Source: Opitutus sp. GAS368 (lineage in GTDB: Bacteria; Verrucomicrobiota; Verrucomicrobiia; Opitutales; UBA953). From it: 40,041 bases of DNA. The notes below the pieces were generated by a model. The model worked only from the letters and a program-made list of their open reading frames with translations. It did not search any database and was not told where the DNA came from. Shown one piece after another: positions 26,403 to 31,304 of this stretch (positions within the stretch are counted from its first letter, which is position 1; each line of letters begins with the position of its first letter). The DNA is taken from assembly GCA_943330755.2 (NCBI GenBank), contig CALQIY020000007.1, positions 1 to 40,041 of the forward strand. Direction: 5' to 3'. A program made the position numbers and the translations under genes.

Positions 26403-27698
26403 ATGCCCTCGCCCTCATCCATGGATCGCCGCGCGTTCTTTCGTCTCACCGCCCTGGGTTCGCTCGGGGCATCCTTGCTCCCGTCCGTCGTCCAAGCCGC
26501 CCCGACGCCCGCGACCACCGTCGCCCAGACGCAGCTGGGGATCGATGTCCTCACGTCGGCGGGCTTCGCCACCTTGCGTGGCGTGCGTTGTGGACTCGTC
26601 ACGCACCGCGCCGGCATGAACGCCGCGGGCAAGCGTACGGCGGACGTCTTGGCGAACGCCCCCGGCGTGCGACTCACGAAGCTCTTCGGACCCGAGCACG
26701 GCATCGATGGCGCCGCCGCCGCGGAAATCGCGGTCAAGAACGCGAAGGACGCGCGCACGGGCCTGCCGGTCTATTCGCTCTATGGCGCGACGCGCCGTCC
26801 GACCCCGGAGATGCTCGAGGGCCTCGATGCCATCGTCATCGACTTCCAGGACGTCGGTTCGCGCTCCTACACGTACATCAGCTGCATGCGGTACGTCATC
26901 GAAGCATGCTTCGCGCTCCCGCGTCCGATCCGCGTGATCGTCCTCGATCGCCCGAACCCCTTGGGCGGCGAAAAAGTCGATGGCCCCTTCCTGGACCGCA
27001 AGTGGCGCAGCTACGTCGGCGCGTATGAGATGCCCTATGTCCACGGCCTGACCATCGGCGAAATCGCGCGTTGGGCGGTGGCGACCCCCGGCATCCTCGA
27101 GCTCACCGAAGAACAGCGCCGCCGTGGCTACCTCGAAGTCGTCCCGCTGCGCGGGTGGAGCCGAGCGCTCACGTGGAACCGGACCGGCTTGAATTGGATC
27201 CCGACCTCACCGCGCATTCCCACCGCGCAAGCGGCGTTGGGGTACGCCATGGTCGGCCTCGGTTGTCAGCTCGGCGACTTCAGCCACACCTTCGGCGAGG
27301 AGATGCATTTCCGTTTCATCAAGTATAGCCGCCGCAAGTCCGCGGATATCATCGCGGCCTTGGGCAACGCCGTCCCGGGCCTGCTGCTGGAGCCGAAGCT
27401 CATGCCGGACGGCACGCAGGGGGTCTACACCGCCATCAACGATTGGGCGAAGTTCCGGCCCACGGCGCTCTCGTTGCACATGATGCGGCAGGCCTGCATC
27501 TGGGACCCGACGAACCCCTTCGCGCGCGCCACGAAGAACGAACGCGAACTCTTCATCAAGCACACCGGCAGCGAAGCCTTCTACGAAGAACTCCGCGTGC
27601 GCGGGGCGGCCGTCGATTTGCCGCGGTGGCAGGCGCAATGGAACGCCGAAGCGGAAGCCTTCCGCGCGCGGACGGCCCCCTTCCGGATCTACGCCTGA
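26403..27698 (+). CDS. namZ: NamZ-like exo-beta-N-acetylmuramidase (DUF1343)
   Basis: Exported hydrolase of 431 residues, the family that removes terminal MurNAc from peptidoglycan fragments. The N-terminus MDRRAFFRLTALGSLGASLL (from the second ATG at 26421) has a twin-arginine-like RRAFFRL followed by a hydrophobic stretch ending near VVQAA. Family landmarks are GIDVL, GLVTHRAGMNAAGKRT, LFGPEHGIDG, DFQDVGSRSYTYIS, VLDRPNPLGG and PYVHGLTIGE. GRAVLs of the recycling pathway are not nearby. It is divergent from purN across 83 bp and ends against purF (TGATCA). Family assignment is firm; substrate is inferred from characterised members. Confidence 0.88.
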   Translation: MPSPSSMDRRAFFRLTALGSLGASLLPSVVQAAPTPATTVAQTQLGIDVLTSAGFATLRGVRCGLVTHRAGMNAAGKRTADVLANAPGVRLTKLFGPEHGIDGAAAAEIAVKNAKDARTGLPVYSLYGATRRPTPEMLEGLDAIVIDFQDVGSRSYTYISCMRYVIEACFALPRPIRVIVLDRPNPLGGEKVDGPFLDRKWRSYVGAYEMPYVHGLTIGEIARWAVATPGILELTEEQRRRGYLEVVPLRGWSRALTWNRTGLNWIPTSPRIPTAQAALGYAMVGLGCQLGDFSHTFGEEMHFRFIKYSRRKSADIIAALGNAVPGLLLEPKLMPDGTQGVYTAINDWAKFRPTALSLHMMRQACIWDPTNPFARATKNERELFIKHTGSEAFYEELRVRGAAVDLPRWQAQWNAEAEAFRARTAPFRIYA

Positions 27699-29612
27699 TC
27701 AATAAGCGCGACCTTCGCGCTTTTCCCAGAAGTTGATGAAGGCTTGGTTGAGCACGCCGTAACCACCCGGGGTCGGGTAGTCGCCCGTGAAGTACCAATC
27801 GCCTTGGCTCGTCGGACAGGCCTTATGCAGGTCCTTGATCTGCTGGAATACGAGGACGAGTTCGCCCTTCCAGCCGGACTTCGTCGGGTAGACGAGCTCG
27901 GCCGCTTTCGCCGCGATCTCCTTGTCGGTGAAGGCATCGTAGATGCGCTTCACGTGGTTCTTGAGTTCGGCCGCCGGCTTGGTCGATTGCGCGACGCAAT
28001 CTTCGTAGACTTCGCGGAGCAGGTCCGTCATGCCGCGATCCTTGCACAGCGCGACCGCGGCCTGGAAGGCGAGGAACTTGCCCATCTCGGACATGTCGAT
28101 GCCGTAGCAATCCGGGTACCGGATCTGCGGGGCCGTCGACGCGATCACGATGCGCTTCGGGTTGGGGCGGGCGAGGATGCGGAGGATCGATTGGCGGAGG
28201 GTCGTGCCGCGGACGATGGAGTCGTCGACGCAGACGAGCGTGTCGCCTTCGCGGACGGCCCCATACGAGATGTCGTAGACGTGCGAAGCCATCTGCATGC
28301 GGTTCTTCTCCTGCGTGATGAAGGTGCGTAGCTTGACGTCCTTATGGGCGACCTTTTCGCCGCGCGGCCAGCCACCGAGCACGAGGCGGTCGATGGCGGC
28401 CGCGTCGAGCTGGCCTTTCGCCAAGGCGTCGCGGAGCTGGTCGCGGACCTGCGTGCGGCGCCGCATGCGGAGTTCTTCCATGAGCCCGTACCACGCGATT
28501 TCCGCCGTATTCGGGATGTAGGAGAAGACCGCTTTGTCGTGGTCGTCGCTGATCAGGCGGATGACCTCGTCGGCGAGGGCCGCGCCGAGGGCTTTACGTT
28601 CGGCGTAGATTTCCGGGTCGTTGCCGCGCGAGAAGTAGATGCGTTCGAAGGAACAATGCCGGCGTTCGCCCGGGGTGTGGATGCACTCCACCGTATGCCG
28701 GCCATCGGCCTTGATGATGAGCGCGGAGCCCGGGGGGAGTTCTTGGACCTCGGCCTGGGTGGCGCCGACGATGGTCATGAGCGCCACGCGCTCGGAGGCG
28801 ACGGCGATCAGGTCGTCCGTGCGCACGTACCAGCATGGGCGGATGCCGTTCGGGTCGCGGACGACGAAGGAGTCGCCGTTGCCGATGAGCCCGGCGATGG
28901 CGTAGCCGCCATCCCAATTCTTCGCCGCCTTGCGGAGGACGTTGCCGACATCGAGGTGCTTGGAGATCTCGTGCTGGACGGCCATGCCTTCAAGCCCCTG
29001 GTCCTTGAACGCCTTGAAGAGGCGGTCGTGTTCTTCGTCGAGCCAGAAGCCGATTTCCTCGAGGATGGACTGCGTGTCGGTCGAGTAGATGACGTGGGCG
29101 CCGCGTTCCGTGAGGGAAGCGTTCAGCTCGGGCGTGTTCGTCAGGTTGAAGTTGCCGGCGACCAGCAGGTTGCGGGTCGGCCAGATGGACTTGCGCGCGT
29201 AGGGGTGGCAGGAGACCGAATCGAAGTTGCCGGACGTCCCGTAGCGGAGGTGGCCGAGGAGGAGTTCGCCGCCGAAGTCGAAGTGGCGCTTCACTGTTTC
29301 GGGGAACTCCGGGACGATGACCGCTTCCCGGACCTTGTCCGCGTAGGTCTTGATCTGGCGGGTGAAGATCTGGGTCAGGCCCTGGGCGCCGATTTCGCGG
29401 TCGCGGAAGAGGAAGGCCTCGCCGTTTTCGGCGCCGATCTTGACGCTACCGATGCCCGCGCCGTCCTGGCCGCGGTTGTGCTGCTTCTCCATGAGGAGGA
29501 AGAGCTGGTTGAAGCCGTGGAGCGGGGTGCCGTACTTCTCCTGATACCATTTCAGGTCCTTGGTCAGCCGGACAAGGGCAATGCCGCATTCGTGCCTTAA
29601 GGAGTCGCTCAT
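27699..29612 (-). CDS. purF: Amidophosphoribosyltransferase, long form
   Basis: First committed enzyme of purine synthesis: PRPP plus glutamine to phosphoribosylamine. It has 637 residues, about 130 more than E. coli PurF. Only an eight-residue propeptide precedes the probable N-terminal nucleophile Cys9 (HECGIALV). The glutaminase part has NRGQDGAGIG, LLGHLRYGTSG and NFNLTNT; the phosphoribosyl part has RDPNGIRPCW, the PRPP loop LVCVDDSIVRGTT, and IRYPDCYGIDMSE. Extra sequence after residue 500 includes a C-terminal portion ending GGYGVLNQAFINFWEK. This length class is like that of Bacteroidetes. No Fe-S cysteines of the B. subtilis type are obvious. The kinase-like gene lies 63 bp upstream on the same strand. 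Confidence 0.93.
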   Translation of the reverse strand: MSDSLRHECGIALVRLTKDLKWYQEKYGTPLHGFNQLFLLMEKQHNRGQDGAGIGSVKIGAENGEAFLFRDREIGAQGLTQIFTRQIKTYADKVREAVIVPEFPETVKRHFDFGGELLLGHLRYGTSGNFDSVSCHPYARKSIWPTRNLLVAGNFNLTNTPELNASLTERGAHVIYSTDTQSILEEIGFWLDEEHDRLFKAFKDQGLEGMAVQHEISKHLDVGNVLRKAAKNWDGGYAIAGLIGNGDSFVVRDPNGIRPCWYVRTDDLIAVASERVALMTIVGATQAEVQELPPGSALIIKADGRHTVECIHTPGERRHCSFERIYFSRGNDPEIYAERKALGAALADEVIRLISDDHDKAVFSYIPNTAEIAWYGLMEELRMRRRTQVRDQLRDALAKGQLDAAAIDRLVLGGWPRGEKVAHKDVKLRTFITQEKNRMQMASHVYDISYGAVREGDTLVCVDDSIVRGTTLRQSILRILARPNPKRIVIASTAPQIRYPDCYGIDMSEMGKFLAFQAAVALCKDRGMTDLLREVYEDCVAQSTKPAAELKNHVKRIYDAFTDKEIAAKAAELVYPTKSGWKGELVLVFQQIKDLHKACPTSQGDWYFTGDYPTPGGYGVLNQAFINFWEKREGRAY

Positions 29613-29675
29613 CGCAGGCTTCCGACTTTGTCGGGTCGGCGCCTATCCTGTCCAGCGCTTACTCTTCGCAGACGC

Positions 29676-30731
29676 TTAAGAGCGCAGGATTCGGTCCAAA
29701 CGGGCCAAGCTTTCGCCGATGAGGCTCGCCATGGTCGAATGCTGGCGGAAGGCGGGGTCCCGGTGGTAATCGGCCAGACCATCGGCCAATTCCTTGGCCT
29801 TCTCGGGGGCGGACAGGGCGTTGGCCTCCATGGCGGCGAGGAGGTCGCGGACGCGGTCGGGCGCCGCCAACAGCCGGCGGTGGATCAGCGACTGCTCTTC
29901 CCGGCGGTACTGGGTCGCCGAGGCGGCGATGATAAGCCGGGCGCAGAGTTGGGTGTAGGGTCCGTTTTCCTTGAAGGACCCCGGGAGGTAGAAGCGGAGC
30001 CGCCCATCGTAGGACTGCTGGTCGAAATCCATCGCCCGGACACGGATGGCCGTGGCGTCGAAGTCCGGCGTGACGGCGATGACGAAGTTATAGGCCCGCA
30101 TGTCGCCGAGGAGGCGGACGAGGCAGCGCTCCTCGAACTTGATGAGCTCCTTGGCGAGGCGGACCGGGTGGTGTTGGCCCGCTTCGAGCCATTGCTCGGC
30201 GAAGATATCCCCCGGGATCCCGGTGACATGCTCCTCGACCAAGGTATCCCCTTGGGTGAGGTAGAGCATGCGGTTGGGCGACAGCAGGTGCTCGAGTTCG
30301 AGTCCGCAGACGCGGGAGGCGTCGCCGACCTTCACGTAGAAGTAGTCGTGGTTCTCGTTGTACGCGTTGACGATGCGGACGCGGAAGGGCTGCGAATTGC
30401 CGAAGGAGCAGAAATCGACGCGGTCGACGTAGACGTGGCTGAAGACCTTCATGCCGCCTTCGCCCCGGAGTAGTGCGTAGGTTTCGAGCAGCCCTTGGGA
30501 GAGGCGTTCCATTTCATCTTGCGGGTAGGCGACGGTTTCCCAGAGGGAATCTTTGCCGTCGCGGTTCAGCAGGGGCATGGCCGCGTTGAAGCCCCGCAGC
30601 TGGGCGTAGGTGACGGGGAGGGCGACCTCGCGGCCTTCGCGGGCCAGGTATTCGCGGAGCGCCGCGCCGATGGGATAGGCCGGCTTGCGGTTGGTCCGCT
30701 TGAATTCCGCGGCTGAGCCTCCGGCGTCCAT
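29676..30731 (-). CDS. Unrecognised protein with protein-kinase-like motifs
   Basis: A 351-residue soluble protein that I cannot assign to a named family. Several motifs fall in kinase order: FYVKV with Lys134 (ATP-binding Lys), GLELEHLL with Glu145/147 (helix C), LVEEHVTGIPGD at 164-175 (hinge, like aminoglycoside kinases), GDMRAYNFVI where Asp210 and Asn215 have the canonical D-x4-N spacing, and AMDFDQ with Asp235/237 (metal-binding DFG/DFD position). This suggests a HipA/APH-type atypical kinase, which is inference only. It starts 2 bp after the Nudix gene and precedes purF by 63 bp, so it belongs to that operon. Substrate unknown. The next best guess is a wholly new fold. Confidence 0.6.
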   Translation of the reverse strand: MDAGGSAAEFKRTNRKPAYPIGAALREYLAREGREVALPVTYAQLRGFNAAMPLLNRDGKDSLWETVAYPQDEMERLSQGLLETYALLRGEGGMKVFSHVYVDRVDFCSFGNSQPFRVRIVNAYNENHDYFYVKVGDASRVCGLELEHLLSPNRMLYLTQGDTLVEEHVTGIPGDIFAEQWLEAGQHHPVRLAKELIKFEERCLVRLLGDMRAYNFVIAVTPDFDATAIRVRAMDFDQQSYDGRLRFYLPGSFKENGPYTQLCARLIIAASATQYRREEQSLIHRRLLAAPDRVRDLLAAMEANALSAPEKAKELADGLADYHRDPAFRQHSTMASLIGESLARLDRILRS

Positions 30732-30733
30732 CG

Positions 30734-31255
30734 TCAGTCCAGGTTAGGCTGCGTATCCGTCTCTTCGATGGTCATGCGGAGCGGCTGGCCGGGATCGCAT
30801 TCCGCGCGATAGGCGATGAAGCCACGGCGGTGTTGGTCGAAGATCGGCCAGAGCAGGGTGCGGTCCGTGTCCGGAATCGCCGTCGTCTCGACTTCGGCCC
30901 GGGAGAAGAAGCCGAACTTTCCTTCGTCGATGGTCGCGGGGAGTCCGGCGAGCGGTTTGCGGCAATCGAAGAGGAACATCAGCCAGTGGGATTGGCCCTC
31001 GTAGCCCTTTTCGGAGATCATCCCAAAGAGGTGCAGGTCGGTGGTGGCGACGGTCGCGCCGGTTTCTTCGCCGATTTCGCGGACCGCGCATTCGAACGGC
31101 GATTCACCGGTGGCCATCTCGAGCTTGCCGCCGATGGGGCTCCAGCAGCCCTTGTTCGGCGCCTTGGTGCGTTGGATCAGCAGCTGACGGCCCTGCGCAT
31201 CGCGCATGAACACGAGGACGCTGATCTTGAAAGGGAGGGCGGGACCGGCGGACAT
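30734..31255 (-). CDS. Nudix hydrolase
   Basis: Nucleoside-diphosphate-linked-moiety hydrolase of 173 residues. The Nudix helix ends in the canonical ESPFECAVREIGEETG, but two extra residues separate the GGKLE glycine from the first Glu (GKLEMATGE, x7 instead of x5), lengthening the loop. Upstream is LLIQRTKAPNKGCWSPIGG, typical of MutT-like proteins. The ATG at 31255 is preferred over an in-frame GTG at 31288. It lies 49 bp after the aldo/keto reductase stop and 2 bp before the kinase-like gene. Substrate unknown. Confidence 0.88.
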   Translation of the reverse strand: MSAGPALPFKISVLVFMRDAQGRQLLIQRTKAPNKGCWSPIGGKLEMATGESPFECAVREIGEETGATVATTDLHLFGMISEKGYEGQSHWLMFLFDCRKPLAGLPATIDEGKFGFFSRAEVETTAIPDTDRTLLWPIFDQHRRGFIAYRAECDPGQPLRMTIEETDTQPNLD

Positions 31256-31304
31256 GCGGATACCCTTGGAGGGCAGGGCGGGAGGCACAATCCCGGAGTA
31301 GGGC

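Follow-up and report, generated by a model that had tools for sequence, protein, structure and literature searches.

The window, a 40,041-nucleotide stretch of DNA from Opitutus sp. GAS368, raises the question of what is encoded between its Nudix hydrolase gene and its purF-like gene. A preliminary description made from the sequence alone had noticed kinase-like motifs there in a protein of no recognised family, and had proposed either a new atypical kinase or a nucleotidyl- or AMPylating pseudo-kinase related to nucleotide metabolism. The open reading frame list and translation show an uninterrupted minus-strand frame with an ATG start (Table 1). Its GC content at the three codon positions (0.68/0.42/0.86) fits coding sequence, and the plus strand of the same interval is interrupted by stops. 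Two long plus-strand frames, 28344-29600 (418 aa) and 29628-30473 (281 aa), run antisense to the PurF and kinase genes; they seem to be a side effect of high GC at third codon positions rather than genes. Pfam and NCBIfam searches bore out both of the neighbours that had been named, a Nudix hydrolase and a PurF-like protein.

Table 1. Features of the locus, with positions in the window and residue numbers of the encoded protein
Feature	Residues	Position	Strand	Basis and remarks
Gene for protein with predicted kinase fold		29676..30731	-	351 aa; stop codon included in the coordinates; open reading frame, relatives, AF2 model
Strand, and putative ATP-lysine strand with K134 at its end, followed by D137 and R140	116-140	30312..30386	-	120/120 invariance of K134, D137 and R140; model strands
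Predicted alpha-C equivalent helix with E145 and E147	138-150	30282..30320	-	Model helix and invariance
Last N-lobe strand and hinge-like LVEEHVTGIPGD	163-175	30207..30245	-	Model strand 163-167 and conservation
Putative catalytic loop LLGDMRAYN, with D210 (candidate base) and N215 (candidate metal ligand)	207-215	30087..30113	-	Invariance of G209, D210, M211 and N215
MDFDQQ, DFG-like putative metal-binding motif	234-239	30015..30032	-	Invariance of D235, F236, D237 and Q238
Nudix hydrolase gene		30734..31288	-	Pfam NUDIX, 2.7e-17; upstream of the kinase gene, gap 2 nt
Long-form PurF-like amidophosphoribosyltransferase gene		27699..29612	-	TIGR01134, 132 bits, below the model's 350-bit cut-off; downstream of the kinase gene, gap 63 nt

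The suggestion that the protein belongs to no named family was borne out in every library searched. The window protein matched nothing in Pfam, NCBIfam, PADLOC or the PDB sequences, and a profile of 14 family members likewise found no PDB sequence. Scans of 14 members against Pfam and of all 66 members against NCBIfam yielded no meaningful match. At least 592 relatives were nevertheless confirmed by tblastn of genome contigs, and the best 80 of these at least 592 belong to Verrucomicrobiota, for the most part Opitutae, and to Bacteroidota, the latter comprising Chitinophagales, Pedobacter, Mucilaginibacter, Hymenobacter, Pontibacter and some Flavobacteriales. When the spread of the family was surveyed in these two phyla, the gene was present in 82 of 387 genomes drawn at random from Verrucomicrobiota and in 80 of 296 drawn from Bacteroidota, nearly always as a single copy, and the mean column identity of the family is 57%. 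With members in hundreds of genomes from two phyla and no Pfam or NCBIfam model, the family is presumably annotated only as hypothetical.

A phage or plasmid origin was rejected, as a search of viral contigs, phages and plasmids returned no relatives. The PHROG profile phrog_36767 gave weak matches to 14 of the 66 members (best 4.5e-4). A search with this PHROG family itself mostly returned short unrelated open reading frames of 70-110 aa at profile positions 8-75, and kinship was rejected as chance because the kinase is confined to profile positions 2-40. A literature search found the motifs of the family printed in no paper. The family is unnamed by the libraries searched and belongs to the known PKL superfamily; it may already figure among the 32 newly assigned PKL families that the KINtaro paper (PMC10870513) reports.

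Conservation was measured in alignments of 66 and then 120 homologues, the most distant of which are approximately 37% identical to the window protein. The residues and motifs highlighted in the preliminary description (K134, E145, E147, VEEHVTGIPGD at 165-175, D210-x4-N215 in GDMRAYN, and D235 in MDFD) all lie at the positions it gave, and Lys134, Asp210, Asn215 and Asp235, on whose conservation its kinase reading depended, are each present in 120 of the 120 homologues. The residues invariant in both alignments include K134, D137, R140, E145, E147, E166, H168, D210, M211, N215, D235, F236 and D237. Conservation of 98% or more is reached at only 56 of the 351 positions among the 120 homologues, so the 100% invariance of each named motif residue goes beyond chance. 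In the same alignment, E166 and H168 of the hinge region are accompanied by G171, P173 and G174 at 98% or above, G209 of the catalytic loop is also invariant while R212 is replaced by His in 8 of 120 sequences, and the MDFDQQ motif is completed by an invariant Q238 and by Q239 in 119 of 120. The segment that follows the metal motif, DFDQQSYxGRxxxYLPQFFKEN, is near-fixed across the two phyla.

Whether the predicted structure is a kinase fold, the other point on which the earlier kinase reading turned, was answered affirmatively by two AF2 models, Foldseek and VIA-align 2, and the window protein almost certainly adopts such a fold. The model of the window protein, built from the 66-sequence alignment, has a mean pLDDT of 92.1 and a pTM of 0.89. 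The other model, that of a Pedobacter member (pLDDT 85.8, pTM 0.84), shows the same order of elements and was built from its own set of 36 rows, which partly overlaps that of the first. With either model, Foldseek ranked Vps34 first in the PDB (E 4.9e-5 and 1.4e-4; prob 1.00), and nearly all remaining top matches were protein kinases, with low TM-scores of 0.3-0.4 and large rmsd; matches to the model in BFVD were also kinases. In VIA-align 2, whose ranking covers only chains pre-selected by Foldseek, the top 50 matches for both models were all PI3K/PI4K/PIKK. The best alignments were again to Vps34, with 275 residues superposed at 4.4 Å for the window protein (Z 13.7, span 22-351) and 268-270 residues at 4.6 Å for the Pedobacter member (Z 12.2, span 18-347). 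Among the candidates chosen by Foldseek, structural comparison therefore places the predicted fold nearest to PI3K/PI4K/PIKK. HipA, APH, Fam20 and SelO are not among the structure matches listed, which excludes none of them.

The model has strands at 116-122 and 128-135, K134 lies on the third consecutive strand, and this position in the predicted fold suggests that K134 is the ATP lysine. K134 and E145/E147 match PKL K72 and E91 in order, and D210, N215 and D235 match PKL D166, N171 and D184 with D-x4-N spacing, in each case in 120 of 120 sequences. The overall order in the family, K..E..hinge..D-x4-N..DF(D), agrees with the PKL core residues described previously (PMC1821047). The HxD histidine (H164 equivalent) is absent, with L208 in its place in 119 of 120 sequences. 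The PI3K loops examined likewise have no HxD histidine, and individual members of the triad to which this histidine belongs have been lost in several families (PMC1821047).

Taken with the predicted fold, these features make the window protein most probably a soluble single-domain ATP-dependent PKL phosphotransferase of an unnamed family, with its predicted fold nearest to PI3K/PI4K/PIKK; the model contains no membrane segment. The protein is likely to be an active phosphotransferase, since all motif residues are invariant in the 120 sequences even where identity falls to about 37%, which argues against a pseudokinase. By analogy with kinase biochemistry, we infer that ATP and Mg2+ would bind between the lobes, where K134, itself anchored by E145 or E147 in the next helix, would grip the alpha and beta phosphates, while E166 and the following hinge would hold the adenine. 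D210 would act as the catalytic base, N215 and D235, and perhaps D237 too, would bind the metal, and a hydroxyl group on a single dedicated substrate in the cytosol would receive the gamma phosphate. A single substrate is proposed because the segment after DFDQQ is near-fixed between phyla, as would seldom be expected of a promiscuous kinase. The invariance of the active site points to a specific biochemical activity, and Pedobacter, Chitinophaga, Hymenobacter and relatives of Opitutus offer culturable hosts.

The structural matches raise the possibility of a true kinship with PI3K/PIKK. The two-lobe fold predicted here is common to PI3K/PI4K/PIKK (Vps34, PI4K III beta, p110 gamma, Tel1 and SMG1), with 250-280 residues aligned. 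At the level of motifs, K-x2-D-x2-R after the lysine strand resembles K-x-G-D-D-L-R of Vps34, the loop G-D-x-[RH]-x-x-N resembles the GDRHxxN of the PI3K group and I/M-D-F resembles its IDFG. However, identity to that group is approximately 10%, the LRQD after the lysine is absent (DASR instead of DDLRQD), Met-Arg (Met-His in 8/120) stands where DRH has Arg-His, and DFD replaces DFG. Unlike the PI3K group, the family has no helical or FAT domains, is bacterial and is unlinked to inositol synthesis in Bacteroidota.

Sequence comparisons did not bear out this kinship. HHalign against PI3K/PIKK profiles returned probabilities of 0.1-0.4%, not above the reversed control; with the 120-row alignment the catalytic loop came into register with both PI3K and HipA, at non-significant levels. 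The PI3K, Vps34, mTOR, DNA-PK and HipA segments used for HHalign were verified against PDB sequences. In a shuffle test, the catalytic loop gave a weak signal for DNA-PK, mTOR, p110 gamma and HipA (3 to 13 of 150) and none for Vps34, the PI3K signals being no better than that for HipA, and the N-lobe gave no convincing signal. Hand-made parallels between N-lobe motifs of the family and PIKK seemed convincing on inspection, but they did not pass the shuffle test and were dropped as evidence. PF00454 matched neither the window protein nor 14 members, and a PF00454 scan of the window's own genome was empty. PI3K itself resembles other kinases in sequence only at key motifs, and it was structure that revealed their relationship (PMC1821047), so the failed sequence tests leave the link unproven rather than refuted. 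We put forward only tentatively, as a reading with rather less than even chances, that the family is a PI3K/PIKK-like lineage native to bacteria and present, in most cases as one core gene, in parts of Verrucomicrobiota and Bacteroidota. PI3K was listed in 2007 as eukaryote-specific (PMC1821047). If the placement is correct, a mainly eukaryotic type of kinase would serve in bacterial housekeeping, in a new phosphorylation pathway, and the family would bear on the origin of the PI3K/PIKK type.

The genomic neighbourhood offers a different route to function, namely that the protein is a purine/PRPP or nucleotide-metabolism kinase acting with the Nudix hydrolase and the long PurF, for example by phosphorylating PurF or a nucleotide-related metabolite. 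In the window, an aldo/keto reductase (AKR) gene lies further upstream and the order AKR-Nudix-kinase-PurF runs on one strand with gaps of 16, 2 and 63 nt. This arrangement is constant within the window's own group, where Nudix adjoins the kinase in 33 of 33 loci with room for it and PurF in 30 of 31. The linkage to purF and Nudix that the preliminary description had wanted surveyed thus holds within this group, but the Nudix-kinase-PurF order is absent in all other loci checked. No other neighbour of the kinase recurs beyond close relatives, and a conserved operon was rejected because none was found outside the group. The PurF-like protein is long (637 aa) and divergent. The window's own genome (81% complete) contains no canonical purF, so purine synthesis there may depend on the long form for its first step. 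A gene for a NamZ-like exo-beta-N-acetylmuramidase (26403-27698) converges on the PurF gene and keeps this place in loci of the group.

Co-occurrence in Bacteroidota also favours a purine role at first sight. The long PurF, at 45-50% identity, occurs in 66 of 296 Bacteroidota genomes; it is found together with the kinase in 53 of the 296, against 17.8 expected, and the pairwise identities of the two proteins correlate (rho 0.66, 51 genomes). Such a correlation, however, is expected of any two vertically inherited genes, and the co-occurrence is structured by lineage. PurF state changes only three times on the kinase tree (counted without rows G606 and G578) against approximately 22 changes in shuffles, so shared ancestry can explain it, while kinase state changes at least nine times on the PurF tree. 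Moreover, 22 of the 27 kinase-only Bacteroidota genomes form one clade that keeps an intact kinase without a long PurF. The association is real in counts and carried by lineages, a lead rather than proof. With the neighbourhood missing outside one group, we consider a kinase of purine or nucleotide metabolism doubtful. Of the original interpretation, the kinase part is upheld by the predicted fold and the invariant residues, and the purine or nucleotide part is weak.

A further reading, that the protein belongs to a named bacterial PKL family (HipA, APH/CAK or others) but has diverged too far for profile searches to detect, appears unlikely. HipA shares a bacterial kinase fold, a D-x4-N loop and a later metal Asp with the family; HHalign brought its catalytic loop into register as well, and it scored 6/150 in the shuffle test. 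Against this, the HHalign probability for the HipA profile was 0.02-0.03%, which is not significant and no better than reversed controls. The family has no DxHxxN and no HipB partner beside the gene, the C-terminal motifs of HipA (TDxHxKN and FYD) are not its own, and HipA_C (PF07804) matched neither the window protein nor 14 members and had no match in the window's own genome. APH/CAK has a similar G-D-x4-N loop followed by an Asp-containing motif, and the APH Pfam profile matched neither the window protein nor 14 members. APH is not known to have the extra N-terminal strand-strand-helix and the conserved DFDQQSY...YLPQFFKEN segment of this family. The absence of Pfam (window protein and 14 members), NCBIfam (66 members) and PADLOC (window protein) matches also speaks against a named family.

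The remaining part of the original proposal, an AMPylating enzyme or pseudo-kinase, is disfavoured by the active site. Kinase-fold families with AMPylating or glutamylating activity are described in earlier work (PMC10870513, PMC3281104), and SelO resembles the present family as a widespread bacterial kinase-fold family without the HRD histidine, in keeping with the missing HxD histidine noted above. SelO, however, has no catalytic Asp (PMC3281104), whereas D210 is kept in 120 of 120 sequences along with N215 and D235. An AMPylating or glutamylating enzyme, or an inactive SelO-like or SidJ-like pseudokinase scaffold, is therefore quite improbable. Least of all do we expect a bacterial lipid or inositol-lipid kinase acting like PI3K/PI4K: the nearest predicted fold and the many invariant basic residues, which could hold an anionic substrate, would suit one, but within that structural group the PIKKs act on protein substrates, the model is free of membrane segments, and an inositol-lipid link was rejected because myo-inositol-phosphate synthase, which served also as a control for co-occurrence, and the kinase share 13 of 296 Bacteroidota genomes with 13.0 expected (odds ratio 1.0), 67 of the 80 kinase-bearing genomes having no synthase.

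Two genomes appear to depart from the usual single intact copy of the kinase gene. In Pedobacter terrae (G436, L114), two equal-scoring kinase matches lie on different contigs, perhaps through a recent duplication or an assembly artefact. Another Bacteroidota genome (G689:C1:3158148-3158407) retains the kinase gene only as a broken remnant of two short pieces with stops, and carries an intact long PurF at a different location.
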